Shown: piece by piece, positions 7,575 through 60,103 of the stretch
How the letters are laid out: each line of letters opens with the position of its first letter
Position numbering within the stretch: the stretch's first letter is position 1
From: Punctularia strigosozonata HHB-11173 SS5
Taxonomy: Eukaryota; Basidiomycota; Agaricomycetes; Corticiales; Punctulariaceae
DNA: 64,000 bases
Assembly: GCF_000264995.1 (NCBI RefSeq)
Contig: NW_006767450.1
Location: forward strand, 496,403-560,402
Direction: 5' to 3'
Notes under the pieces: generated by a model
Told to the model about the DNA's origin: nothing
Databases searched by the model: none
What the model saw: only the letters and a program-made list of their open reading frames with translations
Position numbers and translations under genes: made by a program

Positions 7575-7734
7575 GAGGACTTCTTCTCACGCGACCACCA
7601 CCAGCGCAATACGCGATAACGCGGATTGCACCGTCGCTAGAGAAAAGTAGTCTACTATAACCACCTATACCGCTCCGATCTGCTCTATATCTACAATACC
7701 GCCGTAGAACTAGTACTGGTAACAATCCCGGCAC

Positions 7735-9576: not shown

Positions 9577-12500
9577 ATCAGAACGACGAACAGCACATAA
9601 GACGGGGGATTTCATTTTGGCAACAGAACCTATGTAAATCTAACGACGCTCAACAGGACTGGCTATACACCATGGGGAAGAGAAAGATCACGATCGGCCT
9701 GGCACAAGAACCCTACGTCGACTTCCTCGGAAACTCCAGGGCGAACCATATGTGGATCCCAGTATACCCGACAACGCACAAACGGAAGCCGCGAGATACC
9801 AGAGTTTATACAGTCGTGCACAGATCCCTACCTCAGGACAAATGGGAGCAGATCGACATCGAAACGCCAGACGTAACCGCAATACGACTAACAGACGAAC
9901 GGGGAGATCTCATCGTGTTCAACGTCTACATTGATCAACAGCATTCTGACGCACTTCATCTAGTTGACAGGATCACAAGCGAGGAACGAACCCGACAAGA
10001 AACAACGAATCATGGACGCCCAATACACTTCCTCTGGGGAGGGGACTTCAACCGACATTCACCGCTGTGGGACGAAGAACGCAACGCTCACCTCTTCACA
10101 AACCGGAACAACCGCATGGCACAGACGCTGATAGACATGCTCGCCAAACATAACCTCAAGATGATCCTGCCAGCAGGGGAACCAACGCTATGTTCAACTG
10201 TCACAAAGAACTATACGCGCCCTGACAATGTCTTCGTCACAGATGAAATAGTGACAAGATGCACGCGATGCATAGTCGTAGCAGGAGACCGACCGCCGAA
10301 AACGGACCACCTCCCAATACTCACGGAGATCGACTACGACTTCGGAACCAGCGAGATTAGACCCCGCCGAAGATACCACGATACAATATGGGACGAGTTC
10401 CGCGAGACGCTCAAGACCGCACTGGACGACAAACCGTACCCAGAAGACGTGCGCTCCAAGGAGGAATTCGACGAAGTCCTCCAGACTATGGATAAGGCAA
10501 TATCAGACGCAATCGAGAAACACGTACCGATCAGCAAGCACCACAAGGTCTACTCGAAGAGATGGTGGAGCCCAACCCTCGACCGCTTGCGGAAGAACAT
10601 GCGGTGTAGTGGCCGAAAGGCGTTTCGACATCGCTCAGATACTTATCACCCTGCTCACGAGGAATACCGACTAGCGCGAAACAAGTACTCCCAGACGATC
10701 CAGAAAGCCAAACAGGAATGCTGGATGACCTTCCTTGAAGAAATCGACGAATCCAACATGTGGACAGCCGGCAATTACATCTCGACACCATCGACGGATG
10801 CCGGCAGATCAAGAGTACCAACACTACGCGACAAAGGCGAAAACGGAGACGTCATAGAGGCTAAGTCAAATAGGGATAAAACTCACATGTTTTGTAGAGA
10901 GTTCTTCCCAATACCTCCAGAGAACCTCCAAGTCGACGAGGACGACCACGAATATCCAGAACCGAAGTTCAAATTCGAGCCCATTTCGGACGAGCGGATC
11001 AAAAGCGTCATCAAACGCCTCGCGCCGTACAAAGCACCGGACTCAGACGAGTACTCCAACGCCATACTAAGACAATGCACTGACATCCTCGCCCCACGAC
11101 TAGGCGTACTATACAGGGCAGTCAACGAACTGAAGTACTGGCCGGAGAAGTGGTCCTATATATCGACTATTGTGCTACGCAAACCAGGCAAAGGCGACTA
11201 CACCAAACCCGGAAGTCATCGCCCCATCTCCCTCATCAAGAAGTTCGCCATGGTATACTCGAAATGCCTCTCCGAAGACCTCATCCATCAGGTCGAAGCC
11301 CACGCACTGCTAGCATCAACTCAATTCGGATTTCGACCGGGTAGATCCACGACCGATGCAATGCAATACGCCGTCACGCTCATCAAGAACGCCTGGCGCA
11401 AAGGAAGGTGTGCTTCCCTTCTCTTGCTCGACATCAAAGCTGCCTTCCCGCACATTATAGTATCGAAACTCGTCCACATCATGCGCTTGAAAGGAGTACC
11501 ACCTGAATACACGGAATGGATCAAGATGAGGTTCAAGGGGCGCACGACCACGCTTCAATTCGACGACTACAGCTCAGAGAAAATCCATATCGACGACGGC
11601 CTGGATCAAGGGGACCCATTTTCAACTATAGGTATGATATTCTACATCGACGACTTATTGAGACAGGGACCAGACCGCGAGGACGACGAGGACGGCATCG
11701 GCTTCGCAGACGACCTTGGCATCATAGCAACAGGGGACACCCTAGAGGAGTCCGCGGGTAAGGCAGAATCGATTATGGTACGGATTAACGGGGCCTTAGA
11801 CTGGAGCGCGGAAACAAACTGCAAGTTCGGCCTGGAGAAAACCGTATACATGGGGTTCACCAGGCGAAGAGAACCGGACCCAGAAGGTAACAAGAAGACG
11901 AGACCGATACCTAGACCCGATATCAGCATCAATGGTACAATCGTCAAGGCATGAAAGTCCGCGCGATGGCTGGGCCTCATAATCGACGACGAACTGCGCT
12001 TCCACGAGCACGCCGCCAGGGCTCTAGCAAGAGGGCAAGACTACATGCAACAATTCAACCGGATTGCACGCAATGCGAAGGGAGCGAGGTACAAATGCAT
12101 GCGATGTTTCTACCTCTCTGTCGCTGTCCCCAGGATGCTATACGCAGCGGAAGTATGGCTAACACCACCAGATAGACGGCGAAAGGGCACACAGAGATTC
12201 ATCAGCCGACTCGCCTCAATACAACGACAAGCAGCACTAGGAATTACAGGCGCCATGAGAACCACGCCCACTGATATAGTCAACGCCTTTGCAGATCTAC
12301 TTCCCTTCGATATCCTGGTCCATCAACACCTACACAGAAGCGCCATGCGACTTGCGACACTACCAACATCTCACCCACTGGCGAAGCACGTGAAACGAGC
12401 GAAAAGATACGTGAAGCGCCACCGAACGCCCATACACGAACTACTCGAAGCCTACAACATCCACCCCCAACATTATGAGAAGATCCAGGCCGTGCGACGC

Positions 12501-13568
12501 GGTATACGATACACGCCCCCCTTCGAGATCAAAATCGCGAAGAACAAGGACGAAGCGAAAGCGGCGGACACGGCGGACGATGCGGACATAATCGTATACA
12601 CGGACGGATCCGAAATCGACAACAAAGTAGGGGCGGCGGCAACGGTATACAGGCGAGGACGACCCGGTGAGACACTACAGTACCATTTAGGCAGATCTGA
12701 ACACTACGGCATCCCAGAAGCGGAACTCGTCGGAGAGCTCCTAGCGACACACCTGCTCGCCACAAAACTTTGAAGATACGACAGAGCCACCATTGCGCCT
12801 GACAACACCGGCACAATCCAAGCAACACAGAACCAGAGGCCCAGACCTGGACACTACCTCGTAGACGCTATCCTCAAACAGATGGACCAAATCGGAGCGA
12901 GGAGAGGCGGGGATACAGGCATAACGATGAGATGGACGCCAGGACACGTCGGCGTGGAGGGAAACGAATATGTAGATGGCAAGGTGAAGGAGGCAGCTCG
13001 CGGAACGTCCAGCGCGGTGAGAGACCTTCCGATACTCCTCAGAAAGACGCTACCGTACAGCAAAACAGCAGCGACGAAGACCTTCAAGAAGACGATCGCA
13101 GAGAAACTCAACACACACTACCGCAACTCGAAACACCTCACAAGACTCAAACGCACCGACCCGAAGTTCAAAGCATCGCGCTTCTACAAGCTGGCCACCA
13201 GTCTCCCGCGTCAAAACCTCTTGCTACTCGTACAACTACGAACGGGACACGTACCCTTACACAAACACCTATACCGAATACAAGTCATCGAATCCCCGAT
13301 CTGCCCAACCTGCGAACGCGAAGAGGAGTCGGTTCTACACTATCTGCTATACTGCCCAACCTACGACGAACAGCGAGGAGAACTGCAGAGAGAATTAGGG
13401 CGAAAGGCGAGAGAACCAACCTACCTCCTCACGAGCCCACACGCACTGCCGCATTTATTCAGGTACATAGCCCAGACAGGGAGATTCGCGAAATCGCATG
13501 GACAGAAGATCGAACTTGACGAAGCATGGAAGAACCCATTCGAGAAAGAGCAACACCGACAACCCTGA
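9573..13568 (+). pseudogene. LINE ORF2 polyprotein (APE endonuclease, RT, RNase H), two TGA codons
   Basis: One frame runs 1331 codons from the ATGA overlap. Endonuclease: FLWGGDFNRHSPLWDEE (around residue 157), DNVFVTDEIV and KTDHLPILTEID. Reverse transcriptase: HRPISLIKKFAMVYSKCL, FGFRPGRSTTDAM, LLLDIKAAFPHI, GLDQGDPFST and FADD as the active-site box (around residue 712). RNase H (from about residue 1008): YTDGSEID, AELVGELLA, PDNTGT and GNEYVD supply the D-E-D-D set. C-terminal knuckle CPTCEREEESVLHYLLYC. TGA codons interrupt at 11952-11954 (before KSARWLG) and 12771-12773 (inside RNase H). Both would arise from CGA by one C-to-T change. No frameshift is needed anywhere. The element should therefore make no full-length ORF2 protein. 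Confidence 0.92.
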
Positions 13569-14440: not shown

Positions 14441-14822
14441 GGTGGAGAGTGTGGGTTTCAACTTCTCGCCGCTGTACGCTCGAGCAGGGATCGGTATCTG
14501 ACTCAGTAGCTCGACAAGCGGTTGGTTTTCACCGACGTGGCACTTTGACTCCCCATCGTGTGCACTGGGCTACTAGCCACCCGGGATGTCTGCGCGAATA
14601 CTTCTGTTGACAACTCGTCTCCGGACGAACCACGACTTTAAAGTTACAAAACAGATATATCGTAATGACCATAGGGCACAGCGGCACACACAACTAAATT
14701 CGCTCATCGAGTCCAACCTGAGGCGCCAAACTTTCCCATCCGTACGGTGGCCATGCCAGGAATGATGTTGCGCTCTTCCGTGAACAAGCTAGCACCAAGC
14801 TTCTTCCGACGACGTATCTCGT
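14441..14822. other. intergenic
   Basis: 3' flanks of two genes facing each other (the LINE-split F-box-like gene and the minus-strand F-box-like copy). Nothing else is recognised. Confidence 0.5.
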
Positions 14823-15849
14823 TCAAGATCCATATCCCTCGTCTTCCGAGTCCAACCAGTAAGCCTCTGGCGGTGGCAACCATCCCCGACTCTTCATCTG
14901 CTCTGTGAACACACGCGCACGCTCCCAAACGCTGTCCCCCCCGAACGCCTCCCTCTCCCAGTCGTCCTCCAACTCGTCCCACCTCGTTACCACGAAGACC
15001 AGCCCGTCGTTGCGCCCGTCCACCGGCACACCCAGTCCCACGTACTCGGCGAGCATGATCCAGTCCCGAAGCGAGATCTCCTCCGTGACCTCGAACACGA
15101 CCATCTCGAGGCCCGCGAGCGCGTCGCTCGCGCTGTGCTTGACGAAGAACGAACAGTCCACGAGACGGACGAAGCCGAAGGCGAGGTGCGTGAGGTTGCG
15201 GAACTGGAGCCAGCAGCCGGTACGTGCTCGCATGCCCGGTGAAGATCGTCGCCTGCTCCGTGATGCGCAGGCGGTTGACGGCGTCGACGTGGACAACCGC
15301 GTTCCTTTCCCCCGGGCCCCCGCCTTCCTCCGCGTAGATCCGAGGGATGGCGCGCAGCGCGAGGTCGACCGGCTCCTCTCGCGTGTCGCCGCCGCCGCCG
15401 CCGCTTTTTGACGGGGGCAGGGCGCAGGCCGCGCGGCGGATGCGTTCGAGGACGCGGTCGGGGCAGCGCCGTCCGGCCCAGCCGACGGACTGGAGGTTGG
15501 GAAAGATCTGACGGAGGTTGGCGAGCAGCGTCGGGTCGAGAGGGATGCCGGCGCGGACGTCGATCTGGTGGAAGGGCGGGTCGACCTCGCCGTAGCCGTC
15601 CAGCCAGAGTCGGCGGACGTGATGGGAGCGGGGGGCGGGCGCTCGGCGCTGCGTCGTCTCCGCGAGCCACCCGTCGAACAGGGCGGCGTCGCCTTTGCGG
15701 TGGGTCGCGATGGTGGCGTATAGGTGCGGCTGGGCGAGCCGCTGCGTCCATGGCGCGACGAGGCAGAGGGTGCGGGCCGTCGTTCGGTCGGCGGCGGCGG
15801 CGGCCTCGATGATACCCTCCAGAGCGTCGATGGATAGGCAGGCAGGCAT
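14823..15849 (-). pseudogene. F-box-like family protein, one frameshift (LCLVASW family copy 1)
   Basis: The start MPACLSIDALEGIIEAAAAA aligns with MPALLPTETLMDIFEWASAT of the intact neighbour at 17268, so I place the start at 15849. LCLVAPWTQRLAQPHLYATI and HHVRRLWLDG follow in one frame down to about 15230. The rest (LQFRNLTHLAFGF, DDWEREAFGGDSVWERARVF, stop near 14823) lies in another frame. The neighbour has no intron here, so this is a one-step frameshift near 15215-15235, either a real lesion or a sequencing error. The middle is much more GC-rich than its paralogues, and a GGC/GCC-rich run encodes a short Gly stretch. Members look like F-box proteins with a C-terminal leucine-rich part. 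Function unknown. Confidence 0.75.
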
Positions 15850-16227
15850 CCGGGGCGTTTTCTTTTTGCGCGAATTCGCTGGCCATGGCTCACGAACATC
15901 CCGACCTTTCATGCAAGTGGTCAGATCGATGTTTTAGGACATTGGCGTACTCGATGCATGGGGCACGAGCATATCTGGACTTTCCGTATCAGCCTCAAAC
16001 CCAGCAAAGAAGATATCAGCGTTTTCCATCGTGGCGCGAGTGGGCTCTGATGGTAGTGATTTGCAATTGGCTATATATTCGCGGAAGAGAAGCGTACAGA
16101 GACCATGTTCGTTGTCGTTTCTGGTGGTTACACTCCAAACCCTATACAAGAAGATATTGACGCAGTATGAAGCCATGCGGTATGAGCCGTTCAACGGTAT
16201 AATCTCTCGTCATCGTCCTACCAGTGG
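15850..16227. other. intergenic
   Basis: Separates two tandem minus-strand F-box-like copies. It holds the 5' flank of the first and the 3' flank of the second. No other feature is seen. Confidence 0.5.
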
Positions 16228-17268
16228 CTACCAGTGACGGAACTCTCGAGGCACTTTCCAGTTGTTATCTCTGAGTCGCTGGGTGAACGCCCGTGCGCGC
16301 TCCCAAATGCTCTCGCCTCCGAAAGCCTCGCTCTCCCATTGATCTTCGTCCAGGAGCGATGGGCAGGTAAACACCCTCTGTTCGCCGTTCTTGTGCTGCG
16401 CACGGTGGTATCTGACCAGCTCCAGGGCCCCGTCCCAATTCGAGCGATAGAAGATGTCCACCTCGATCACCACCATCTGCAGGTTTTTGAGAGGCGCAGA
16501 GTCCCGTTCGGCGAACCAGAGTTCGCCGTCGCCGTACTTTCTGTACCCGAAGCTGAGGTGCGTCAGGTTGTGGTACTGCGTGAGCATGTACCAAAAGTTG
16601 CTCTCCAAGACCTCGTCGCCTTCGAGTTGGGCTCCGGGTCGGAAACGCAAATGCGTGATCTCGTCGAAGGCGGCGTTATGTTCCTCGTCCGCGTGTTGAA
16701 GGTCCGGGACCTCGTTGACGGTGAGATGCACGTGCTTGCCACCGGGTGGCGGCAGCCCGTACGGTGCGTTACCCGGGTCCCTCTCAGTCAGAGTAGGCGT
16801 CGGGAGCGACGACAGCGCCCGGCGGATGCGATCGAAAGTGAGCCTGGGCTGGTCCCACCCGAAAAGGCTGTTTTCGCGCCGCCATTCGTCCCAGCCGAGG
16901 GACCGCAGACGAGGAAACGCGAGTCGGAGCTGAGCGAAGAGCACGGGCTCGAGCGGTAGGCCGTTTACGGCGGGTGCCTGATGCGCCCGCGATGGATCGG
17001 GCTTCGTGTAGCGAAATGCTATCCAGAGGTTCCGGACGTGTTCTGCGCCCGGCGGCGCCTTCCTGGTCTTCCTCATTTCGGCCAACCACCGTTCGAGAAG
17101 TTTGGCGTCGCCCTTGTACTCCGTCTTGATGGTCGCGTAGAGATGCCGCTCTGCCAGTGGCTTCGTCCAGGATGCTACAAGGCAGAGGTTGAATGCCGTG
17201 TGGCGATCCGTGGCGGAGGCCCATTCGAAGATGTCCATGAGGGTCTCAGTAGGCAGAAGAGCCGGCAT
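16228..17268 (-). CDS. F-box-like family protein (LCLVASW family copy 2), intact
   Basis: Single exon, 346 residues from MPALLPTETLMDIFEWASAT. An in-frame ATG 12 codons upstream (17304) exists, but paralogues begin at MPxLLP. Conserved marks: DRHTAFNLCLVASWTKPLAE and RHLYATIKTEYKGDA near the N-terminus, AEHVRNLWIAFR, FPRLRSLGWDEW, YHNLTHLSFGYRK, and the C-terminal block WESEAFGGESIWERARAFTQ. The N-terminal 40 residues fit a diverged F-box and the rest fits irregular leucine-rich repeats; a role as a ubiquitin-ligase adaptor is inferred, not shown. It lies in tandem with a frameshifted copy downstream. Three relatives stand at 34-37 kb. Confidence 0.8.
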   Translation of the reverse strand: MPALLPTETLMDIFEWASATDRHTAFNLCLVASWTKPLAERHLYATIKTEYKGDAKLLERWLAEMRKTRKAPPGAEHVRNLWIAFRYTKPDPSRAHQAPAVNGLPLEPVLFAQLRLAFPRLRSLGWDEWRRENSLFGWDQPRLTFDRIRRALSSLPTPTLTERDPGNAPYGLPPPGGKHVHLTVNEVPDLQHADEEHNAAFDEITHLRFRPGAQLEGDEVLESNFWYMLTQYHNLTHLSFGYRKYGDGELWFAERDSAPLKNLQMVVIEVDIFYRSNWDGALELVRYHRAQHKNGEQRVFTCPSLLDEDQWESEAFGGESIWERARAFTQRLRDNNWKVPREFRHW

Positions 17269-18836
17269 TGGTTGTAGTTTAGAGATGGGAGGCTCCGATT
17301 TCACAACGATGTTCGTGGGATGGGAGTGTCAGACACGCCCAGCGCCAAGGATTTCAACATCCCCAGCACAATGAACAGGGTGAACAATGAACATTTTACC
17401 ACAATGGATGGGACCTGCGATCATTCTGCACGTGAGAAAACGTTATAGATCATACAGACCGCTACTGGTGGCTTGTTTAGGAATCCCTCTGAATCCCTGC
17501 CATGAGTAGCTCTCCAGGAGCGGCGTGAAGCTCCACCAACGGTGCAGAATAGTCGACCGCTGCCTTGCGCGATGCATCACGAGTTGTTAACTATATAGCC
17601 AGGATATTTGCCGCGAGACATACCGCGATGGAGGATTGTCGAACCGTGTTCGGAAGGTAAATAGAAATGCTATAATGAAACCCCTCTCCACACGCAGTTC
17701 CGGTGCTGTGGTCAGAGGCCACAACATAAACCTGTTCGACGAGTAAGTCCGGCATACGAACATGAGCATCGGAGGAACGACTAACTTCCATTCCCGGTGG
17801 TGCGAACACCTGCAGTTCCTTCTTCATACGATTCGCCATGGCTGAGAATATGGTGAGTACCACCGGAGAGGATAATATTGCCATAAAAACACGACGGGTG
17901 CCTATGCCGCACTTCATGATACAATCCAACCTGCGAGTCCTGCAAGTCAACATGAACTTCACTGCGAGCGCTCTGACGCGCCGAAAATGGGGTCTCCCCG
18001 TTGACTCTGGAAAGCCTGAACGCGGTAAGGACGGCGAAGAGGAGTCGTGCGAAGGGAGTGACGAGGAGAGGAGACGAGAGCGGACGAGGAGAATGAGACC
18101 AATCCGTCGGTCATAACGGCAACGGAGCCGTACGTACAAACTTACGTTTTCTCTACTCAATCATCACCGTCACACTCCACTAACGGATGGGGATGTGCGT
18201 GTTATCAAGACGGCCTTAATCCACTGTTCGAGAATGGGGTTAATCTCTTCGTGTGATGCATTGTGACCGAGATCAAACAACGACCGACGCGCGCGTTATC
18301 TGCAGCGAACCTGCAAGGATATCGATGTTTGGCTTCGAGAGTCTTCAACTTTGCACTAGTTTGCAATCTCGTAAGTCGTGGAGAGTCTTGCTCGCATGGG
18401 AAGCGCCAGGCCGTTCTTCCGAAGCGATCTCTGCCGCAATCCACAATGTTCATTTTGGACGTGCGTCTTACGCTCCATATCGTAGTCGGGGAGATCCTGC
18501 CATCCTAGGTCTTGCCTGCGGCTCGCCATGTCACCAGTTAGTCACGATTCCCCACAATCGTGGCTCCGTTTCTTACATGCTACAATCTTAGCCTTCGAAC
18601 GTATGTAAGGGAAGTGAATGGCACGCGGTTCCGAGAAGATGGGGACGAGGCGCCCCTGATATCACGTGTGCCATTGAATGAAAATTCAAAATCAAAGCTC
18701 AGTGGTGGTGCCTGCCAGTGCATCGCTGTCCGGCAACGCAGGAACGATACATAATCGCGCTGCTCGTCGAACGCGCCGTAAAGCCCCCTAATATCGCGCT
18801 CGACCTCCCTCTCGACTCTCCTCGCCGCCCCCGACG
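17269..18836. other. intergenic; one doubtful minus-strand frame
   Basis: A 189-residue open frame occupies 17591-18160 on the minus strand but shows no known domain, no splice pattern and unremarkable composition, so I do not call it. The last 50 bp before 18837 (ACCTCCCTCTCGACTCTCC) are a pyrimidine-rich leader of the NEP1 gene. Confidence 0.45.
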
Positions 18837-20278: not shown

Positions 20279-21001
20279 NNNNNNNNNNNNNNNNNNNNNN
20301 NNNNNNNNNNNNNNNNNNNNNNNNNNNNNNNNNNNNNNNNNNNNNNNNNNNNNNNNNNNNNNNNNNNNNNNNNNNNNNNNNNNNNNNNNNNNNNNNNNNN
20401 NNNNNNNNNNNNNNNNNNNNNNNNNNNNNNNNNNNNNNNNNNNNNNNNNNNNNNNNNNNNNNNNNNNNNNNNNNNNNNNNNNNNNNNNNNNNNNNNNNNN
20501 NNNNNNNNNNNNNNNNNNNNNNNNNNNNNNNNNNNNNNNNNNNNNNNNNNNNNNNNNNNNNNNNNNNNNNNNNNNNNNNNNNNNNNNNNNNNNNNNNNNN
20601 NNNNNNNNNNNNNNNNNNNNNNNNNNNNNNNNNNNNNNNNNNNNNNNNNNNNNNNNNNNNNNNNNNNNNNNNNNNNNNNNNNNNNNNNNNNNNNNNNNNN
20701 NNNNNNNNNNNNNNNNNNNNNNNNNNNNNNNNNNNNNNNNNNNNNNNNNNNNNNNNNNNNNNNNNNNNNNNNNNNNNNNNNNNNNNNNNNNNNNNNNNNN
20801 NNNNNNNNNNNNNNNNNNNNNNNNNNNNNNNNNNNNNNNNNNNNNNNNNNNNNNNNNNNNNNNNNNNNNNNNNNNNNNNNNNNNNNNNNNNNNNNNGCCC
20901 CCCCCCCCCCCCCCCCCCTTCCCGTATCGACAACGGCACGAGCTGACCCGCGTTATACCTAGTTCTGCTGCGCACTGGAGGACCTGTGGGACGTCTTATG
21001 A
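18837..21001 (+). CDS. EMG1: 18S rRNA pseudouridine N1-methyltransferase EMG1/NEP1
   Basis: Six exons: 18837-19526, 19589-19730, 19786-19853, 19911-19953, 20045-20229, 20963-21001; 388 residues. The SPOUT-fold enzyme methylates a hypermodified pseudouridine of 18S rRNA and is needed for small-subunit assembly in the nucleolus. The catalytic domain starts near residue 163 with [17 protein letters not shown]. Family marks: [73 protein letters not shown] and, at the end, [14 protein letters not shown] joined to [12 protein letters not shown]. Family members are usually about 250 residues. Here a 160-residue basic and acidic disordered N-terminus (with a DDDGDDDGD run) is added. The last intron contains long poly-C runs and the assembly gap. 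Confidence 0.95.
20279..20896. other. assembly gap (618 N) between poly-C runs
   Basis: The gap is flanked by 39 C at 20240-20278 and about 21 C at 20898-20918. It sits in the last intron of NEP1, so no NEP1 coding sequence is lost. The true length is unknown. Confidence 0.98.
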
Positions 21002-35073: not shown

Positions 35074-36057
35074 TCAGCAATCGAAGACTCGGGGAACGGC
35101 CCAGTCCTGGAGTTCCAGCTCGCGCGTGAAAGCGCGGGCGCGATCCCAGATGCTCTCGCCTCCGAACACTTCTCGTTCCCAATCGTCACGGAGCGATGCC
35201 GTCCGCATCACCGCAAACGTCGGGTACCCACGGGCACGTTGCTTCCCCACTCCCCCAAGACACATTTCTCCATAGACGCGCAAGAATTCGTGGTTCAGCT
35301 CGATCACGAACATCTTCAAGTGCTTGAACTCGCGCTGCGTGTCGCTCAGCAGTACGCAGACCACCACGTTCGGGTGATCGGTGCCGATGGATAGATGTGT
35401 AAGGTTTCGGTACTGGAGGAACTCCTCGCCGGGCTTGATGCCGGTGTAGCTATGAATCCGCAAGTGCGTGACGGTGTCGGTGGTCGTGCCATCGGACTCG
35501 TAGAAGTTGAGGTTCAGAGGAACGTTCACCGTGAGCCCAAGTGCTTTGATTGAAGAGGGTCCTGAGCGGCCGGAGTCGGTTTGCGCAGATGCATCGGGGA
35601 AGCGCGATGACAGGATCGCGAGCGCCTTGCGGATGTGAACCTCTTTAAGACGCCAAGTGCGATCGCGCGAGACGCGCGTCCAGCAGAGTGACTCCAAGTT
35701 GGGAAAGAGAAGGAGGAGTTTCGCGAGGAAATCCTGGTTCAGCTTGAGGTCGCGCAGGTGATACACCTCGCGAGACTCGCTCGGTGAACTCGCCTCGATC
35801 CATAGTTGACGGACGTGGCTAGCTCGCGATCTGGCGATGGCGGATCCCTGTCCGTCCTGCACAATCTCTTGGATCCAGCGTCTGATCATGTCGGCGCCTG
35901 CCTTGGAGTCTGTCGCCACGACAGCGTACAGGTGGCGTTGTGCGATCTGGGCCGTCCAGGATGCCACCAAGCAGAGGTTATAGGCCGTTCGGCGATCTAT
36001 CGCGGAAGCGCGCTCGACGATATTGATTAACAGTTCAGTTGGTAGTAAGACTGGCAT
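35074..36057 (-). CDS. F-box-like family protein (LCLVASW family copy 3), intact
   Basis: Single exon, 327 residues from MPVLLPTELLINIVERASAI. Upstream in-frame ATGs (up to 36207) are less likely because relatives begin at this point. Shared blocks: DRRTAYNLCLVASWTAQIAQ, RHLYAVVATDSKAG, ASHVRQLWIEAS, FPNLESLCWTRV, YRNLTHLSIGTD and DWEREVFGGESIWDRARAF. Same proposed F-box plus leucine-rich layout as the copy at 16228. A fragment lies 3' and a broken copy lies 5', all on the minus strand, so this is a tandem cluster. Confidence 0.8.
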   Translation of the reverse strand: MPVLLPTELLINIVERASAIDRRTAYNLCLVASWTAQIAQRHLYAVVATDSKAGADMIRRWIQEIVQDGQGSAIARSRASHVRQLWIEASSPSESREVYHLRDLKLNQDFLAKLLLLFPNLESLCWTRVSRDRTWRLKEVHIRKALAILSSRFPDASAQTDSGRSGPSSIKALGLTVNVPLNLNFYESDGTTTDTVTHLRIHSYTGIKPGEEFLQYRNLTHLSIGTDHPNVVVCVLLSDTQREFKHLKMFVIELNHEFLRVYGEMCLGGVGKQRARGYPTFAVMRTASLRDDWEREVFGGESIWDRARAFTRELELQDWAVPRVFDC

Positions 36058-36500
36058 CTTCTTGTGTGTAGTCAGGTGCTGATATGAAGAACTTGTCGTT
36101 TCGTCGTTGTCGAGTGGCTCGAGTCTAAGACAAAGGAAGGATGGTTGTCTGAAAGTTCGCACGGACCTTGCACTGAGTCGAACTCTCCCACGATAGTGGG
36201 TGCACAACGGGCTTTCCTGTTTCTGGCACTGAGCAACCGACGATTGCTGGGAAGGACCCTCGCAATAGACGGCGGAAGGAGTAAAAGACGAAACATATCT
36301 GAAGATTAACCGAAGATGAGGCTACAAATCATCCTGTTTTGTCCTACGTGTAGAGCACATCTGGCCATGCAAGCCTCGCCAGTCGATATTATTCTTTCGC
36401 CGCTTCGGACGCCATCCCGGTCTCCACTGCGTTCGCCTGTCCTTCCACCGATGGCATTTCAAACCGCTTTTGGCCTTACATGCTGCCCCAGAACATATTT
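36058..36500. other. intergenic in the F-box-like cluster
   Basis: Promoter side of the intact copy and 3' flank of the broken one. Nothing else is seen. Confidence 0.5.
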
Positions 36501-38144: not shown

Positions 38145-39535
38145 ATGGCTACGAAGGCCGAGACGAACCTTGGGTGGACCGGACACGGACCTTGGCAGTA
38201 CACCGTGCTGTCGGGCACGGCGCTTACAGACGAACTTCAGCGGCTCTCTGCGCCGACCTCAGTCGGCACGGCGGACGCAGTGACGTTCCAGCCCTCTCCG
38301 AAGTCGCACAGTCAAGATCGTTACGTGGTTCACGAGTGGGAGATTGGTGCGACGGGGCAACATTGGAAGTTTGCCGGGGTGTTCGACGGTGAGCTCTTCA
38401 CCCTTGAATTCTCGCATCACGTCGTTACTCACGAGGCTCACTTCCTCTAGGCCACGGTGGCGAGGCAACTTCCGAGCATATCGTCGATGTCTTCCCGGAT
38501 CTCGTCCGTCAGTCACTCGAGCAGCTGCTTTCCAACTCCCCCGAAGATGTCGTCCCAGCCGTCTCGGATTTGTTGGTGAAATCCATCCGTGACTTCGACG
38601 AGGGGCTCGCTCTGGACCTGTTCGGCATCTTTCCCGGTGGTTTGGAAGAAGCCACCGGGCTATCGGACGACGAGCTCAAGGCCCGCATGAGCGAAGGCGA
38701 CAACCAGATCAAGTTCGAGAGGTGCATGTCCGGTACGACCGCGCTGATATCTTTGTTGGACCCCGCTGGGGCCAACCTTTGGGTGGCGAGCCTCGGAGAC
38801 TGCAACGCCGGTACGTATAATCATTCTTCTGCGAGCGTGCACTTCCCTTACACGTAAACGCCCAGTCGTGGGCACCCAAACCGGTCCCGAGCAGTGGCAG
38901 CTGGACGTTACCGACGGCAACCACAACGGCAACAACTCCGAAGAGGCCGCTCGTGTCCGCCAGGAACATCCTGGAGAGGACGAGTGCGTGATGGAGACGC
39001 CGTGGGGTACCCGAGTCCTGGGTGCCATCGCCATCACCCGAGGTACGGGATGTTCCATTAGCCAATTACGAAGGTGGGACTGACCTCTCGAACAGCGGCG
39101 GGCGACTATCATTTCAAGTTGCCCTTACCATGGATTGAAGTATCGCTCCGTGTCAAGGAGATCAAGTTCAGCTACACGAGTTTAGATGCTTGGAAGGCGC
39201 GCATCCGGACTCCGCCGTACCTGTCGAACGTTGCGGGCATCCGTCACATCAAGCTCGACCCGCTGCAGGACGGTCACAAGCGGTTCCTGATCATGAGCTC
39301 GGACGGGCTATACGATTTACGACCGGAGGAGGACATGGAGTCGCCAGTGACAAAATATGCGCTGGGATGGCTCAAGGCCGCCGCGAAAGCGCAGGACGCG
39401 GGAGGGAACCTTGCGATGGAGGTGTTACGTCAGGGCCTCGGCGGCGAGGACGAGGCGAAGGTGTCCGCAATGCTGACGCTCGAAAGTGAGGGCCGGTGGA
39501 CGGACGATATCACGGTCATCGTCAAGCCCCTATAG
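38145..39535 (+). CDS. PP2C-family protein serine/threonine phosphatase
   Basis: Four exons: 38145-38388, 38451-38810, 38866-39042, 39096-39535; 406 residues. PPM/PP2C motifs in order: SQDRYVV (metal site 1 region), FAGVFDGHGGE (metal-binding D and G), MSGTTALISLLD, WVASLGDCNA, FLIMSSDGLYDL and TDDITVIVKPL with the final metal-binding Asp pair. The layout, with a long insert between the GDC and SSDGLYD motifs and no membrane or targeting segment that I can see, resembles pyruvate dehydrogenase phosphatase-like fungal PP2Cs. The substrate is not known. The usual R-x-x-GD box reads AITRAAGDYHFKLP, formed across the exon 3/4 junction. Confidence 0.9.
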
Positions 39536-39742
39536 GCAAGCGCGTTTATCTGTATATAAGATATGTATCTAGGCTACGTGTCTAGCAAATATTTATTTGC
39601 GCGCTTTGAATCCAATGCAGGGTGATTCCCCTCTTCACACTACACAGGCTGTACAGTCCGAGCCATCGAAAGCGAGTACTCGTACGCCATCAGAAGAAGT
39701 CAAATTCAAACTGTGGCAACAACTATTCTCAATACCTGATTC

Positions 39743-41858
39743 TCAAGTATCATCAAAGTTTTGGACACTCACGCACGGGTTGGGATCGTCTGGCATTTTG
39801 CCTCCCATCAAGAAGCCGATGATTTGCGCCTTTTTCACGCCCCTGCCCTCCGCCCCTCTAGTACCATCACCCCAGCAAGAAATGGGTTCGATTGTCTCCC
39901 TCCCTTCGCAGGGTCGTTTCCGGACTTGCGCAGGCAGTATTCCTCGTATGTCCAACCCAGCATGTCGCGCATCGTCCCGTTGAAGAAAGGACCCATCTTC
40001 TCGATCTCCTTGGCTTCCGCGCGCATGCACATCTCCGACACAGTAGCTGGTGGAAGTTTCGGTCCGAACGGGTTAGGGATGTGATCGTGACTCGATTCCA
40101 CCATGCGCTGCAATCGCGGATATTCAATCGGGTCGTTCCACCAGCCGTCGAGGCGGAGGTACTCTTCCTCGTGCGAGTAGGGGCAGAAGTCGTCCGGGCG
40201 GTGGCATTTGTCGAGGAGGTAGGCGAGACAGATGTTGCGGCCACTATAAGACGTAGAAAGGGCGCACGTCAGCTGAAAATATCCAGAGAGACAGGACTTC
40301 AATATATCCACTGCAGTATTGGCCCAACTCAACGTATCCTTTCTATCAGATTTTGAGGTTTGTCTAAGGCAGGATTCCATGTGTACGGAAGCCCGTCGAG
40401 AGCTCGCGGTAGTCCGTGACATGCTCGACAGCGGCGACTATGATGACGAGGACGAGGAAGATATCGTCTCTGAAGACGAAAAACCCTTCTGGTTCCGTGA
40501 CATTGGATGCCCGTCCGACTCCGAAGATTTCAAGCGCGAAGGAAATGGGCTGCAGTGCCACGACTACAACCGCGATGGCTGTAAGAGAGGACCGCGAAGT
40601 TGTCCGTACAAGCATGGGCCGGATCATCGGAGTATCCGCGACGATCTGTACGCTTCTTTCCGTCCACCACGACAAAGCGTACGAACCATGCATGGCGGCC
40701 CTGATAAGTCCTATACCCTTTCGAGCGAGACCTCGGCGGTACCGGGATTTCAAAAGTCTTTTGTCATACTCCAACGCCCGGCCGGCGCATTGCGCTGCTG
40801 CATGATAGCTGCGGGTCACGAAAGCGTCGAATGAGCTGACACAAAATCAACATCATGATAGCAAACTCTCGTCACGTAATCATTTCTTTTGAGAAAGGCT
40901 GCCGCCAGATTACTCAAGTACCGAGGGCGTGGTCCATCCACCTGCGCTGCGTGGAAGTACGCCTCTATTGCTTTGTGCCATTCCCCCTTTCTGAAGAACG
41001 CGTTACCCTACAGGAGCCAATCTTGGATGTGAGTTCACCCGACCCCCGTATGTTCTGAAGGGTCTGTCATGTTACTCGCCTTATCCTTGAAATTCTCGCC
41101 TTCTGTATTCTGTTCTTTCTGCATCGCACGCCGCTTTTCTGCACGCGCCGCGACTTCCGCCTCTCTGGAACGCTTCCACCTCGGATCGTCCACTGCGTTT
41201 GGAAATTCCGGTTCTCGAAGGCTGCAGAGAGCAAGGATGACTGGCGTTGTCTGGGGTGTGCCGTGCAGGCTGCCTACGTAGCCAACGTGTCCCTTTCCAG
41301 AAGCGGAGAATGCGACCGACGCGTGGTAGTTGAGTACAGATGAGTCCTCTTCGTTCCTGTATCCGTAAACAACGTGCCAGGGGGGGCGAGGCCTGGGCCA
41401 GAGATCTGCAATGCATGCACGTCGTACTCGATTGCGAGCTCCTGCTTCGACACGTTCAGTACTTCCAGGCGCGTTAGCCTGTGCTTGGCCTTGCGGTAAG
41501 CGTCCGCCCTCCAGTTGAGTCCCCACACTTGGAGGAAAAGAGTGTTCATGTCCTTGGCATGTATTTCGGCCGCGAAGTCGCAGGCGTAGACGACGGTGCC
41601 GCCGCCGTCTTTCACGTAGCGCTTGAGCGCTGCCGGCGTCTTGGAGTGCGACAGCTCCGCCATGGCGCCGTCGGCTACGACCACCGCGGCAATTGCTTGC
41701 GGATTGCTGAGGCGCGTGATCGCCTCGGCGTCGGTGCGGACTTCGACGAGTGAGCACCGCTCGTCTAGCGCAGACAGCAGGTGGGCATATTGTTCGTAAA
41801 AGCCTGGCCGACTTGCGAGGCGAATGAGGAGAACGGTCGGTTTTGAGCGAGTCGTCAT
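39743..41858 (-). pseudogene. GATase-like/TPR/CCCH zinc-finger gene with an inverted internal exon
   Basis: Exon 1 from 41858 encodes MTTRSKPTVLLIRLASRPGF and a DJ-1/ThuA-like alpha-beta domain of about 200 residues. A G7 run at 41380-41386 marks a frame change before WHVVYGYRNEEDSS. After an intron, GNAFFRKGEWHKAIEAYFHA and ALEYDKRLLKSRYRRGLARK are TPR helices; this exon ends at 40687 with a GT donor. The final exon (from 40243) has a CCCH finger (CLAYLLDKCHRPDDFCPYSH) and GWTYEEYCLRKSGNDP. The exon that belongs between them, carrying another CCCH finger, lies at 40350-40647 on the opposite strand (separate entry). As sequenced the gene cannot give the full protein. The C-terminus is uncertain (stop at 39835 or, with another junction, 39743). 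It may be a true rearrangement or an assembly error. Confidence 0.75.
40350..40647 (+). other. inverted exon of the TPR-CCCH gene
   Basis: 298 bp on the plus strand read DFEVCLRQDSMCTEARRELA, an acidic linker, and the CCCH finger CHDYNRDGCKRGPRSCPYKH followed by GPDHRSIRDDL. An acceptor (CTCAAC branch site, CTATCAG) precedes it and a GTACGC donor follows it, both in plus orientation. Flanking exons on the minus strand end G|GT at 40687 and begin TATAG|T at 40243. The phases match exactly: G|AT gives Asp at one side, CT|T gives Leu at the other, yielding the family sequence RDDLGRNIC. The 39 bp and 106 bp between exons add to 145 bp, right for two normal introns cut once each. Confidence 0.85.
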
Positions 41859-42370
41859 GTCGTACGTATCTCATATTCTCGTACTGTCTGTCAGGCTTCG
41901 AAGGCGTCTGTTCTTCGCAATTAACGTCGTATTTGGCCTATCCAACGACTCAAGGTCCTAGAGATATCTCTTAATTCTTGAATATAAGTATGAATGAGAG
42001 TGCAAAAACGTACGGAACATCGCATGGTGCAGTCTCTCCAACGCCTGTTTGCCCCTATCCATCCTGGTCATGAATAAGTTTGGCTCGTGACGCGTTCCAA
42101 GCGCGGCGACATCGTCATCGGCTAAACTGAAACGCTTGTTTGGGCGCTAAAATCGGTATCCTACGGACGTACGCAAATATGTGTTGTGAGGAAACATGAC
42201 AAAACACGTTTTGCGGCGCTCAAGCCTCCCTCTGAGCTTACAGTGTCTCACTAAAGTTACTCCTCACAATGCGTAGCCGAAGGCAAACCCGCTTCGCTTC
42301 GCAAACCACATCGAACGAACAAGGAATGTAGGCGAACATTGCCGACAAAAACCTCGCAGAGCGTCTAGCA
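41859..42370. other. intergenic, AT-richer
   Basis: 5' flank of the TPR-CCCH gene and 3' flank of the next minus-strand gene. No feature is recognised. Confidence 0.5.
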
Positions 42371-46460: not shown

Positions 46461-49422
46461 ATGTCGTACTTTCTCTACGGCTACAGCCAGCACAAGCCGG
46501 CGCGAGAGGGGAACGAGGTCGCGCGGACGCTGAAGACGATCGTAGATGGTGAGTGCCTCTGCCGATTGTATTGATTTGTTATTTCCGACGTTGAAGAAAC
46601 CGATTGCGTGTTATCGATATACGACAGAACCGGCGTACGCGTTCGACGTCCAGACGCGCAAGGATCTCGTCGCCGTGATCTTGGAAGATGTCCGGTTGTG
46701 CGCACAAAACGATCCCCAAACGCGGCTGCTGCGAACCGGTACGTCTCTGTAGTTTCTCTCTGCTCCCCCGTGCACTGAACCTCTTACCCTTTCCCCTACC
46801 TTCTTCTATCGCGTCTGTCCTCTCTCCTGTCCGTTCACGATTGAATATGGATATATCACAAAACATCGGTTGGCACACCCAGACGCCGCGCTCGCCCTGC
46901 TCGCGATCAAGAACCTCGCCAAGATCCCCATCGGCGCAGGCGTGCTCATCACGGAGCCCAACCTGAAGACGCTCCTCGAAGCCTCGACCGCCTTCCCGGA
47001 CGAGCCCGCGGCGCAAAACGAGGCGCTCCGGTGCATCGCCAACTCGCTCCTGCTGCACGAGTCTGCGCGGACGACGTTCGTCACCGACAATGTCCGCGGC
47101 GACGAACGCTGCGTCGAACTACTTGACGTACGCAACAATTCCCCCCCATCGCGTTCCCGCCTTTGTTTTCTTCAGCTGAATATATGCGGGATATATGCAG
47201 AAATCAGACGACCCGGAGCAGATCTTCCTCGCGAGCCGGATCCTCTTCCTCTGCACCGTCTCCTCCCTCGCCGCGGGCGACTTCATCAAGTCCCTCGTCG
47301 AGCAAGCGCGTGTCGTCGATGTCGTCGGTCCCAAGATCGACCTTCTCACCGCGGCCGTCGCCGCCGGAACCAAGATGGCCCGCGAGGCGCTCACCGATCT
47401 CATGAAGTTCGTCTTCAACCTGCTCGTGCACTACCCCAAGGCAAATATTACCTACCCTCTCTCTCTCTCTACACTACTCATTCACGTCGTACAGCTGACT
47501 GACGCGCCATGGGCGCCGATCAACCAGAACGCGCCAAAGCCGGACGACCACGCGAAGGTCATGGGCGAGTACTGGAGCGACCGCTTGGACGGGTACGTTT
47601 GCCAATCGCTTCAGTGATTGCAGCACCACCAGCTGAATCTCCGCCTAACAGCATCCTCGCCCCCCTCCTCCGCGCCTTCCACACGCTCCCCCCTCCGCCC
47701 GCCTCGCCCACGCCGCTCGCCGCCCCACTCACGCACATCATCCACGCCCTCATCTCCGTCCCCTTCACCCCCTCCCTCCTCCCAACATGGCACGCCCCCG
47801 CCCCCACCTCTCCCTCACCGCTCACCACCACCAAACTCGCCTCCGCCGCCGAGTCCTCCTCCTCCCGCTCCGGCTCGCCCACGAGCACCTCCAAACCTCC
47901 CGGCGCCTTCGACCGCGCCATGTCCGTCCTCTCCTCCGCCTCCCGCCGCTCCTTCTCCGGCATCCGCGGCTCCTCCCCCTCCCCCTCCTCCCCCTCCCCC
48001 TCTCCTCCCACCTCCTCGATCGACGTCCTCAAACGCGCCCAAGACCTCCTCGACGCCTCTTTCGCCCACTTCCTCCAAGGCACCTGCGACCCCGACGACG
48101 CCGCCGTGCGCGAGCGCGCCTCCGCCGCGGGCGACACGACGCTCGACGAGCTGCACGGCCCGCTCGTCGTGCTCCTCACCCGGCTCGCGCTCGCCGACGC
48201 CGCCTGGCGCAAACGCACGCTCGACTGGCTCGTCCCCGCAGACCTCGACCGCACCGGCCCACCGCTCGAGGCGCGCCCGACACTCCTCGGCCGTTGCCTG
48301 CGCCTGCTCGGATCCGTGCACCATCCCCGGCTAAAAGACGCCGTGGGCGAGCTCTTGTTCGCCGCCTGCGATGAAGACGGTGAGCCCTGTTCTTTCCTTC
48401 TTCCCTCCCNNNNNNNNNNNNNNNNNNNNNNNNNNNNNNNNNNNNNNNNNNNNNNNNNNNNNNNNNNNNNNNNNNNNNNNNNNNNNNNNNNNNNNNNNNN
48501 NNNNNNNNNNNNNNNNNNNNNNNNNNNNNNNNNNNNNNNNNNNNNNNNNNNNNNNNNNNNNNNNNNNNNNNNNNNNNNNNNNNNNNNNNNNNNNNNNNNN
48601 NNNNNNNNNNNNNNNNNNNNNNNNNNNNNNNNNNNNNNNNNNNNNNNNNNNNNNNNNNNNNNNNNNNNNNNNNNNNNNNNNNNNNNNNNNNNNNNNNNNN
48701 NNNNNNNNNNNNNNNNNNNNNNNNNNNNNNNNNNNNNNNNNNNNNNNNNNNNNNNNNNNNNNNNNNNNNNNNNNNNNNNNNNNNNNNNNNNNNNNNNNNN
48801 NNNNNNNNNNNNNNNNNNNNNNNNNNNNNNNNNNNNNNNNNNNNNNNNNNNNNNNNNNNNNNNNNNNNNNNNNNNNNNNNNNNNNNNNNNNNNNNNNNNN
48901 NNNNNNNNNNNNNNNNNNNNNNNNNNNNNNNNNNNNNNNNNNTTTTTTTTTCCCTCTCATTTTCGATTTTCCTGCCCCTCTCTCCGATATCTGGTCATGC
49001 CACCCCTCCCTCCTCCCCCCCACCCCCTTTCTTTTCTCTCCCTCCTCACAATCTGTCGAACGTCCATCTGATAAATACCCTTTCTTGGATCCCCAGCCGG
49101 CGCGCTCGCGTCCCAAGTCGGCTACGGCAACGTCGCCGGTTTCCTCTACAACCGCGGTATCATGGCCAACCCCTCCCCGTCCGCCTCCTCCTCCGCCAGC
49201 GCCGCGGGCCCGCAGACGACGCCGGACGGCCGGCCGATCAACGCCATCACCGGCGTCGTGCAGCCGGCGCAGGAGCACAGCGCGCTGGACGAGATGACGG
49301 AGGAGGAGAAGGAGCGCGAGGCGGAGAAGCTGATGGTGCTCTTCGACCGGCTCGAGCGCAACGGGGCGATCGCGCCCGAGCAGAACCCGGTCAGGCAGGC
49401 GATACGGAAGGCGAACAGTTGA
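46461..49422 (+). CDS. RIC8: RIC8/synembryn, chaperone and exchange factor for G-alpha
   Basis: Seven exons: 46461-46548, 46628-46738, 46883-47127, 47201-47440, 47495-47592, 47652-48379, 49097-49422; 611 residues. The armadillo-like core shows ALLAIKNLAKIPIGAGVLIT, EALRCIANSLLLHESARTTF, DDPEQIFLASRILFLCTVSS and LTDLMKFVFNLLVHYPK. It ends QVGYGNVAGFLYNRGIMA, the C-terminal signature of Ric8 proteins, then an acidic tail (DEMTEEEKEREAEKLMVLFD). It folds and activates G-alpha subunits in the cytosol. Intron 4 begins AAG|GCAAAT (a GC donor) and has a CT-rich tract before its acceptor. The Ser/Pro-rich insert of about 110 residues in exon 6 is longer than I expect for the family. The second assembly gap lies in the last intron. 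Confidence 0.92.
48410..48942. other. assembly gap (533 N) in the last RIC8 intron
   Basis: Flanked by CTTCCCTCCC on the left and TTTTTTTTTCCC on the right. Exons on both sides join in frame (DED then AGALASQVGYGN), so coding sequence appears complete. Confidence 0.97.
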
Positions 49423-56196: not shown

Positions 56197-59100
56197 ATGA
56201 GCGCCCCGCCGATCCTGGACAACCTCGCAGAGCACCCGGGCCAGACTGTATCAGGCCATTGCGACGTCCACGAATCTGAAGACCATCATTCCGCACTCTC
56301 CACACCCGGTCCCTCTCGTATTGTCCAGCCACGCGTTTGTCATTGCGCACTCCGTACGTCTATCATGTTCAAAGATGCTATTCGAACGCGCGTTCAATGA
56401 GGGCTGACGTGTTTTCCGCCAGTGGAACCGCTCCTCGGAGAAGACGGATCGTGGCGGACAGCAATCGGTCTCCACGACGTCCATGAGAAGGAAGGGGATG
56501 CGGACGCGTTGGAGGACTGTATCAAGATCTATCGCAGGCTCCTTGACGACGGTGGCGCCGTTCAACTCCATGTCAGCGAACAACGGGCCGTAACCCGGAG
56601 GACTCTGGCTTTCAAGTTGTTACAGGACCGTAATGGACTCGCCCACGCCAGCGGGCGCCACTGTGTTCTGTCCCGGCTCAGTCGAGCGCTCAGACAGCGC
56701 TTCCTGTTTCACGGAGTACAGCAGGATCTCCAGGACGCGGTCGCGCACGGGCGCAGCGCGGTCGAGGCATGTGATTCCGAAGGCGTTTCTTGCCCCGCCA
56801 CGACGACGACGCTCGCCGACGCGCTGCGCGAGCGATTCGGCAGGCTGTCGAGCGCGGAAGACTTGGACGAAGCGTCTCAGCTCTGCCAGAGCGCGCTGGA
56901 CGGTTCACCGCCCGGGTGCAAACTGCGGCCCGGGTGCCTGAACGCCATGGGAAGGCTCGCCTGCTACCGGTTTCGATTGCAGGGCATGGCCGGCGGCGCG
57001 GCGCAGGCGATCGTGCTTCACAGGGAGGCGTTGCACACGCCTGGCCTGGCGTATCCGGAGGATTTCAAGGCCCGCTTCCTGCTTGCGTTGGCCCTCTTCA
57101 CCGAATACGAGGTGGACGGTCAGATGGACAAACTCGAGGAGGCGATCAAGCTCTATCGCACCGCGCTGGAGTTGTGTCCTCCAAAACACGTCGATCGGCC
57201 GATCGTGCTTCTGAACGTCGGGATCGCGCTCACCATCCAAGGAGAAGACAAGAGCGTCGTGAGCGACGTACAAGAGGCGATCACGCACCTCCGCAACTCC
57301 CTGTCCCTACGCCCTCCGGGCGACCCCTACCGGATCAACTCGATGTCCACTCTCGGGAACGCCGTGCGGTCCCGGTTCATCCTCGAGGGCAGGCCGGAGG
57401 ACCTCCAGGAGGCGACGCAGATCCGGCGGGACGTGATCGCATGCTGCCCGCCCGAGAACCCACACATGTGGATATTCGTCGGCAACCTCGCCAACGTGCT
57501 TGGAAGCCAGTACGAGCACTTCGGGAGCCTGGGCGACCTCGACGAGTGCATCCAGCTACAGCGGGAGGCGATGAGGCGCATACCATCGGGTCATCCCAGG
57601 ATCGCCATCGTTCTCTGCAATCTCGCCGAGTGCTTGATCATGCGTTTCGACGACACCGGTCGCGGCGCCGACCTCGAGGAAGCAATTCAGAGTTTCCGGG
57701 AAGCGAGCGACATCACGAGGCCAGGGCACCCTCACTACTCCAATACGGTGGAGTACCTGGCCACCTGTCTCCGCCGACGTTTCCGCATCTCCGGCGCGTA
57801 CAATGACCTCGAAGATTCGATCGCCCTCTCAAGGCGCGCCATCGGAATGGTGTCCAAGAGCTATTCAGGTTATCCACCTATGATCATCCATCTCGCCGAA
57901 GGACTGTGGCTCCGAGGCGAGCACAGGAGGGACCTTGACGACATCATACATGCCATCAAAGCGCTGGAGGATTTGGACCCCGACTTGACGCCCGAAGTAG
58001 AGCGGCAACGTTGGTTCGAGATCCTCGGCAAAGCGTACTTCGCCAAGTTCAAACACACGCGCTCTGCGTCGGACTTTGAGAAGGCGCGTGAACTCGTGGA
58101 GAAACAACTGGAGCTGCTCACCACTGGCCATCGCGAGCGCTCCAGGCGGCTGATCGACCTCGCCGAGCTTCACCTCGAGCACGGACCTGGTCGCGACATC
58201 GCGCAGGCACTGCAGTTCCTCTCAGAAGGCCTCACGGACGACCACCTGGACGTTCGCGCCCGGCTGCGAGAAGGCGTCCGCTTGCTCTCGGCCATCGAAT
58301 GCGACCACGGGGACATCACGGACGACGTCGCGACCTACTCCCGCCTGCTGGACGTCTACCGCACAATCGTCCACTTGCTCCCGCGCCTGGCCTTCTTCGA
58401 AGTCGACCTCCCCTCCCGCCTCAAGACGCTCGCGGTCGGCCAGAGCGTAGCCGTCACCGCCGCAAGCCATGCGCTCGAGCTGTCCAGGCCGCAAGACGCG
58501 CTCGAGATACTCGAGCAGTCCCGCGCCATCTTCTGGACGCATTCGCTCCGGCTGCGCTCGCAGTTCGACCTCGTCCCGGACGAGTATCGACGGCGCCTGC
58601 TGGAGCTGTCGCGCCAGCTCGACCGGCACGACGAGGGTACCGGGCTCGCGATCGAGAAGCAGCAGCTGGAGCTCGCGCGAGCAAGGAGGTGGAAGCAGAC
58701 GGACGAGTTCCATAATCTGGTGGGCCAAGTCCGGTCCCTGCCCGGCCTCGAGCGGTTCATGCTCCCGGATGACCTGACGGCTCTATCCGGAATCGCGCGA
58801 CACGGGCCCGTCGTGGTCCTCATCGCGTCTAAGGTTACGCGCCGCGCGGTCGTGCTTAGGCGTCCAGGGGATATAGTCAATGTTCCTCTTCCCCTGGTGT
58901 CTGTCGAAGGGCTTGTGCAGTCCAGCAAGGGCTGGAAGTCGGTCCTCATCAGCGAGAAGCGATCCGTCACGCGCGACAGTCGACTGAAATTGCACAAAAC
59001 GAGGATCACGGGCCAAGAACGGAGTGCGACGCACGTCATTCTGGAGCAGCTTTGGGTGGGCGTTGTGAAGCCGGTACTCGACTCACTGGGACTCAAGGTG

Positions 59101-60103
59101 AGCAGAAAGATGTCTGGGAATCGCCTATACGTAGTCCCGACCGGAGCTCATCCAATGCCCGACAGCCCTCGCAAGGTCGAGATCGCCCTCGCCTATGGTG
59201 GTGTCCGACCGGAGAGTTCGCTCGTCTGCCGATCCACGCTGCGAGCGGCGGGGACGAAACGTGTTCGGATTACGTCGTTTCTTCCTATATCCCGACCCTA
59301 GGCGCCCTCGCGACCGCAAGAGCGTCGTATACGCCCCTCACCAAACGACAATGCAAGGTCCTCCTTGCGGCCGTGCCGCGGTCACACGTCCCTATGTGGG
59401 CCGACCTACCGTCGATCGTGGACGAAATCCAGAACGTGGCAGAGATATTACCCGCCGATTCGCTGATGCCGATACCGGATACGGAGGACGCCCGGGTGGG
59501 GGACGGACGTGGTGTGCACGCGCAGACGCTGCTCGACCGGTTACCGGAGGCCAACATTTTGCACCTAGCGTGTCATGGCATGCAAGACCCAGAGAATCCG
59601 CTCGAGAGCGGCTTCGTCATGCGCGACGGCATCCTCAATATCGCCAGATTGATGGGTACGCCGTCTCCGAACGCGCTCATGGCCTTTCTCAGTGCATGCG
59701 AGACGGCTAAGGGCGACAAAGTCAGTCATCGAAACTGGTGACCACCACGTCCAAACAGATGCTGACCATGCCGTGCGCGAATATTGTAGAATCAGCCAGA
59801 CCAGACCATCCACCTGGCAGCAACGATGCTGTTCGCTGGCTTCAAGAGCATCATTGCGACGCTGTGGTACGTGCCGCAGCCCGTTCTTGATACAGGAAGC
59901 TCACGACGCCGATCTTCAGGTCCATGGAAGATGTCGACGGACCGATGATAGCAAGCCACATCTACAAGGAACTATTCCACGGAGGGTCCGAGCACCTGGA
60001 CCCTGACATCATACCATACGCGCTCGACTCTGCAGTACGAAAACTCCGGGAGGTGGAAACCTCCCCGAGCAGATGGGCACCGTACATACATCTCGGGATG
60101 TGA
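56197..60103 (+). CDS. TPR-CHAT protein (caspase-like protease domain)
   Basis: Five exons: 56197-56353, 56423-59097, 59166-59720, 59796-59866, 59920-60103; 1213 residues. From about residue 70 to 720 the protein is built of degenerate TPR units of about 45 residues (for example DLEEAIQSFREASDITRPGH and DLDECIQLQREAMRRIPSGH), each with an L-R-x-R-F-like helix end. The C-terminal CHAT domain has LWWCPTGEFARLPIHAASGG, catalytic His in ILHLACHG (about residue 1081), catalytic Cys in AFLSACETAKGD (about 1122), and the terminal LAATMLFAGFKSIIATLWSM. Both catalytic residues are present, so it may be an active clan CD protease. Such genes are numerous in agaricomycetes; roles in cell death or self/non-self recognition are suspected, not shown here. 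Confidence 0.93.

Follow-up and report, generated by a model that had tools for sequence, protein, structure and literature searches.

A candidate single-exon microinversion in a TPR and CCCH zinc-finger gene of the fungus Punctularia strigosozonata

We analyzed a stretch of 64,000 nucleotides from the genome of Punctularia strigosozonata HHB-11173 SS5 (contig NW_006767450.1, positions 496,403 to 560,402; the whole stretch is called the window below, and all coordinates refer to it). A gene with tetratricopeptide repeat (TPR) and CCCH zinc-finger exons occupies its minus strand from the ATG at 41858 to the stop codon at 39837-39835. Its short introns and the genes present in the window point to a fungal, probably basidiomycete, origin, and proteins of similar kind, combining TPR with tandem CCCH fingers, probably occur in mushroom-forming fungi. 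The N-terminal coding region (41428..41858, minus strand) contains no Pfam family at the cut-off; a weak ThuA score (E 0.077) stays below it. It is followed by a possible 71-nt intron (41357..41427, minus strand, GTACGA...TACAG), which would account for a frame change near a C7 run. A frameshift at this run, near 41380, was considered as a lesion and dropped, as the intron has the right phase and explains the change equally well; the intron itself is unproven, being one of 30 stop-free options. The next intron (41008..41079, minus strand, 72 nt, AAG/GCGAGT...TGTAG) starts with GC. This start was likewise rejected as a lesion: the intron is needed for the TPR start GNAFFRKGEW and is taken to be an ordinary GC-AG one. 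Downstream of it are a TPR exon (GNAFFRKGEWHKA...FLKRND; 40880..41007, minus strand) and an intron required by the TPR register (40809..40879, minus strand, 71 nt) that starts with TT, not GT or GC. The remaining exons, termed E1, E2 and E3, are the subject of this analysis.

The window also contains a number of other features. Two runs of N are found at 20279-20896 (618 bases) and 48410-48942 (533 bases), and the window thus represents a scaffolded draft; the first run has simple repeats on both sides, polyproline when read on the plus strand. A degenerate retroelement of the non-LTR type spans 7726-13568 (plus strand). Its ORF at 9258-11951 encodes an endonuclease/reverse transcriptase (RVT_1, E 7.3e-17; Exo_endo_phos_2, E 1.3e-9), the frame of the reverse transcriptase is interrupted by stop codons in frame, the last bases of which are 11954 and 12773, and an upstream 617-codon ORF (7723-9576) shows by eye a CX2CX4HX4C motif similar to a zinc knuckle and has no Pfam match at E up to 0.01. 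A 505-codon open frame at 4952-6469 (plus strand) is a long coding tandem repeat, made up mostly of near-identical ARRHGDSGRSSSRGRR-type units. The ORFs 16228-17328 and 35074-36321 (minus strand) have a similar LLPTE.L..I-type start, which by eye we take to be F-box-like; the ORF at 35077-36321 (minus strand) has no Pfam match at E up to 0.01, and a further ORF, 14704-15933 (minus strand), looks related to these two. Finally, a TPR-rich ORF at 56404-59741 (plus strand; TPR_12, E 4.8e-20) runs into an apparent intron at about 59098-59164, after which the reading is presumably CHAT-like. The frame break in this ORF (56401-59301) was rejected as a lesion, because a GTGAGC...CGACAG intron at this position fits.

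On the minus strand, the TPR exon E1 (40808-40687) ends in phase 1 at the donor GTTCGT (40686). The last exon, E3 (40243-39835), which carries the second CCCH finger, begins after the acceptor TTATAG/40243 and is preceded by a CTGAC branch motif with its A 26 nt upstream of the acceptor. The exon between them, E2 (40350..40647, 298 nt, phases 1 and 2), lies on the plus strand. It encodes the end of a TPR helix, an acidic stretch and the first CCCH finger, is open in the relevant frame, and occurs only once in the window. A first-pass annotation of this DNA had ended the TPR exon at the donor 40687/40686 and started E3 after TATAG at 40243, and both sites were found at these coordinates and on these strands. 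It had also described the plus-strand exon as complete with acceptor, branch site and donor; the acceptor (TATCAG/40350) and the donor (GTACGC at 40648) are indeed present, whereas a scan with three branch patterns found no branch motif before the acceptor.

When E2 is turned round, both splice phases fit (G/AT and CT/T), which reproduces the phases originally noted, and the joined protein reads ...RAAMH/DFEVCL... at the first junction and ...RSIRDDL/GRNICLAYLL... at the second. One exon read from the strand opposite to that of its neighbours, with phases that fit once it is turned, is the layout of a single-exon intragenic microinversion, and it is seen here. Codon usage over E2 (3.4 bits and no stops in the best plus frame; 0.5 bits and one stop in the best minus frame) hardly separates the strands and was rejected as proof of strand, being too weak.

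Each of the two exons E2 and E3 contains a CX7CX6CX3H motif, at 40556..40615 on the plus strand and at 40171..40230 on the minus strand, respectively, with a distance of 325 bases between them. These are the only two such motifs in the six frames of the 64-kb window, one per exon on opposite strands. Sixty shuffles yielded 0.07 motifs on average and never more than 1, so that the pair exceeds chance. A looser version of the pattern adds one site in the window (1893-1955). In a comparison with solved structures, joined E2+E3 matched the tandem zinc fingers of muscleblind-like protein 1 (5u6l, E 7.4e-5, 25.4 bits), and the alignment follows one tandem-finger domain, spanning the join. Six distinct sequences were matched at E up to 1, five of them named muscleblind and one bearing a database label only. 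Taken separately, E2 reached a best muscleblind match of E 0.036, and E3 matched muscleblind at E 3.9, ranked under two unrelated chains. The antisense reading of E2, as it stands on the minus strand, had no match to solved structures at E up to 10. The two motifs form a tandem pair with a short linker only when E2 is turned, and the Pfam CCCH models stayed under the cut-off in all versions tried, joined protein included.

At the other junction, the 34-residue TPR register runs on across the join of E1 with turned E2. At E up to 0.001, the joined TPR queries, which presuppose the join over the TT intron, matched 35 distinct solved sequences, and in 33 of these 35 the best stretch passes join residue 55 and reaches residues 61-80. 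When E1 was followed by the actual minus-strand sequence, 11 distinct solved sequences were matched, none of them aligned past residue 55. The same difference is seen in the PP5 match (34.7 bits for E1+E2 vs 26.1 bits for E1 with the actual minus-strand sequence) and in Pfam TPR_1 (38.6 vs 33.2 bits). With E2 turned, domains are thus continuous at both joins, and two different domains, TPR and CCCH, point to the turned arrangement. E2 lies inside a 185-codon plus-strand open frame (40277-40834), and might for this reason be taken for a separate overlapping gene that was never part of the minus-strand gene. However, both its phases and both half-domains match the minus-strand neighbours, and the window has no further CX7CX6CX3H motif that could serve as a partner, so that we assign this explanation a very small probability.

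The non-coding sequence left between the exons is consistent with two cut introns. The leftover of 39 nt (40648..40686) holds one breakpoint and two donors facing each other, and the leftover of 106 nt (40244..40349) holds the other breakpoint and two acceptors back to back. Together they amount to 145 nt, i.e. two introns of ~72 nt each, and the candidate introns elsewhere in the gene are 71 and 72 nt long; the first-pass proposal that the leftovers equal two ordinary introns is thus borne out. For comparison, the three introns of the adjoining gene measure 44-86, 55 and 44-53 nt over the eight splice choices that leave that gene open. The ends of the inversion are confined to 40244-40349 and 40648-40686, which gives a size of about 300-440 bp. 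An inversion of this size with a breakpoint in each flanking intron, as had been put forward from the letters, explains the exon order, the phases, the leftover lengths and the protein continuity at both joins.

We also searched for inverted repeats that might have mediated the flip. Between the two breakpoint zones, inverted matches reach no more than 5 nt, nothing beyond chance (of 1000 shuffles, 496 gave 5 nt and 412 gave 6 or more). Inverted matches of 6-7 nt were seen only with one arm outside a breakpoint zone. Four inverted pairs (12-23 nt, 74-92% complementary) are present in 39000-42000, of which only a 12-nt pair (40114-40125 / 40630-40641, 92% complementary) encloses part of the inverted stretch, and its two arms are both exonic. 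An 8-nt inverted repeat made up by the opposed donors (40648-40655 / 40675-40682) was rejected as the cause of the flip and is read as two similar donors put face to face by that flip. Inverted repeats in general were rejected as the cause, as those between the zones are no better than chance and the others miss the zones.

That inverted matches between the zones end at 5 nt speaks against a switch by recombinase or homology, and equally against a flip driven by repeats during assembly. A reversible or polymorphic exon serving as a switch should be spliceable in its turned state, as the GT and AG ends and the open frame are kept. Yet the inverted repeats at both ends that characterize a recombinase-type invertible segment are not found, matches between the zones being at chance level, and the gene has a probable further lesion; a switch is therefore extremely improbable.

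The possibility that a contig piece or a chimeric read put a few hundred bases backwards, making the arrangement an assembly or library artefact, deserves more weight, because the assembly is a scaffolded draft with two N runs in the window and the TT at the start of one of the gene's introns might likewise be an error. On the other hand, there is no N within 7 kb of the segment, and an overlap assembler would have little reason to flip it when the inverted match between the zones is at most 5 nt, as in the shuffles. The adjoining gene (38145-39535, plus strand) reads through without a break in eight splice choices, and the one choice that was tested encodes a PP2C-type phosphatase (PF00481, E 3.1e-17), so the region is not simply error-ridden. 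We consider an artefact, the main rival reading, unlikely, and the missing inverted repeat between the zones makes the balance lean towards a real allele.

The intron with the TT start (40879-40809), which the first-pass annotation missed, is probably a second lesion, and might alternatively reflect a base error. All 17 stop-free GT/GC-AG alternatives score lower in Pfam TPR_1 than the TT join (21.6-29.5 vs 38.6 bits), in a comparison that presupposes the TT join itself. Several of these canonical alternatives keep the frame and damage the TPR repeat; the one at 40840-40809 keeps both flanks, with 12 residues inserted and an implausible intron length of 32 nt. As this intron has no GT/GC-AG choice that preserves the TPR, the gene copy is more likely to be in decay than to be a new allele of a functional gene. 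At the same time, the frames and finger residues in E2 and E3 are intact, which suggests that the decay, if real, is young.

As the locus stands, E2 has no place in sense in a minus-strand transcript, and part of the TPR repeat and the first finger are lost with it. Skipping from the old E1 donor to E3 throws the reading out of frame and into a long aberrant tail, and read-through from E1 on the minus strand meets a stop at 40366. There is, in addition, a cryptic donor GTACGC (40681..40682, minus strand, phase 2), 4 nt beyond the E1 donor and previously unnoticed, from which splicing to 40243 would skip E2 in frame through a 439-nt intron. If it were used, the inversion could be real and the gene still working, its product being a TPR protein that retains one CCCH finger. 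This donor has the phase required for the skip, its sequence is similar to that of the GTACG- donors at 38811 and 39043, and the skip product retains 17.9 bits for TPR_1 and 13.2 bits for zf-CCCH_12, both under the cut-off. But a matching phase is expected by chance in about one case in three, the intron, at 439 nt, would be much longer than the gene's other candidate introns (71-72 nt), and the upstream TPR intron has no canonical choice that spares the repeat. A still-working gene is accordingly quite improbable, and we find it decidedly improbable that the flipped allele is expressed from the 40682 donor as a single-finger TPR protein, with the exon dropped in frame, while both orientations segregate in the species. 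Loss of function would be the likeliest outcome of the inversion.

The best reading of the locus, and in our judgement a probable one, is that a real microinversion lies in a copy of the gene that no longer works. Given the inversion and the TT intron start, this copy is most likely a pseudogene of recent origin or a null allele. The ancestral gene would have encoded tetratricopeptide repeats followed by a tandem CCCH zinc-finger pair. A simple inversion of about 300-440 bp would then have hit it, with one break in the intron before the 298-nt exon and one in the intron after it, so that the exon, still accompanied by its own splice sites, came to lie on the opposite strand. Such an event could have occurred through two-ended break repair by end joining, or through a replication template switch with little homology. 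The geometry, the phases, the motif pair and the domain continuity are seen in the sequence itself; that the flipped state is derived, that it exists in the real DNA and did not arise in assembly, and that the gene is dead, we infer. One scan each of viral contigs (79 pattern matches) and prokaryote genome contigs (163 pattern matches) gave no relative, as expected for collections of viruses and prokaryotes.

A single exon turned cleanly round, with the DNA cut only inside short introns, provides a snapshot of how a gene can be disabled by a small inversion. Gene callers that treat one strand at a time may be expected to lose such an exon silently. If real, the arrangement is a structural mutation with breakpoints in compact introns that could be placed to the base with a single ortholog; if an artefact, it warns of exon-sized errors of orientation that leave no sequence gap.

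To our knowledge, muscleblind proteins are without TPR, unlike the gene described here. The similarity to muscleblind (PDB 5u6l, 3d2q), with two CCCH fingers and a similar linker length, is one at the domain level only. A limited literature search found no paper on an exon inversion in fungi, though such papers may exist. Among small inversions described in animals, the 59 human-chimpanzee microinversions reported in PMC8755829 are of 17-33 nt and are all described as flanked by inverted repeats of 3-75 nt. The inversion proposed here is similarly small and precise, but is about ten times longer, and the zones share no flanking repeats of more than 5 nt, whereas repeats of 3-5 nt are possible, as each end may lie anywhere within its zone. 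The Drosophila microinversions, according to the account in PMC1779558, are also small and intragenic, and mostly lie within introns: none of 143 overlaps an exon of its host gene and 7 reach into an exon of another gene, nested or overlapping, in contrast to the whole exon contained in the inversion here. The absence of host exons from that set would fit selection against exon flips. A parallel in type is a de novo, PCR-proven inversion of 4,260 bp in the human DMD gene of a Duchenne patient, with breakpoints in introns, a 2-bp microhomology and flanking deletions of 618 and 12,344 bp (12.2 kb in the legend), as given in PMC4303224, where the inverted exon is number 50 in the body and legend and number 44 in the abstract. 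As in that case, a single exon is inverted here and both breakpoints are intronic, whereas the intron lengths at our locus are explained without a flanking deletion. Going by that case description, single-exon inversion with intronic breakpoints is already known from human disease.
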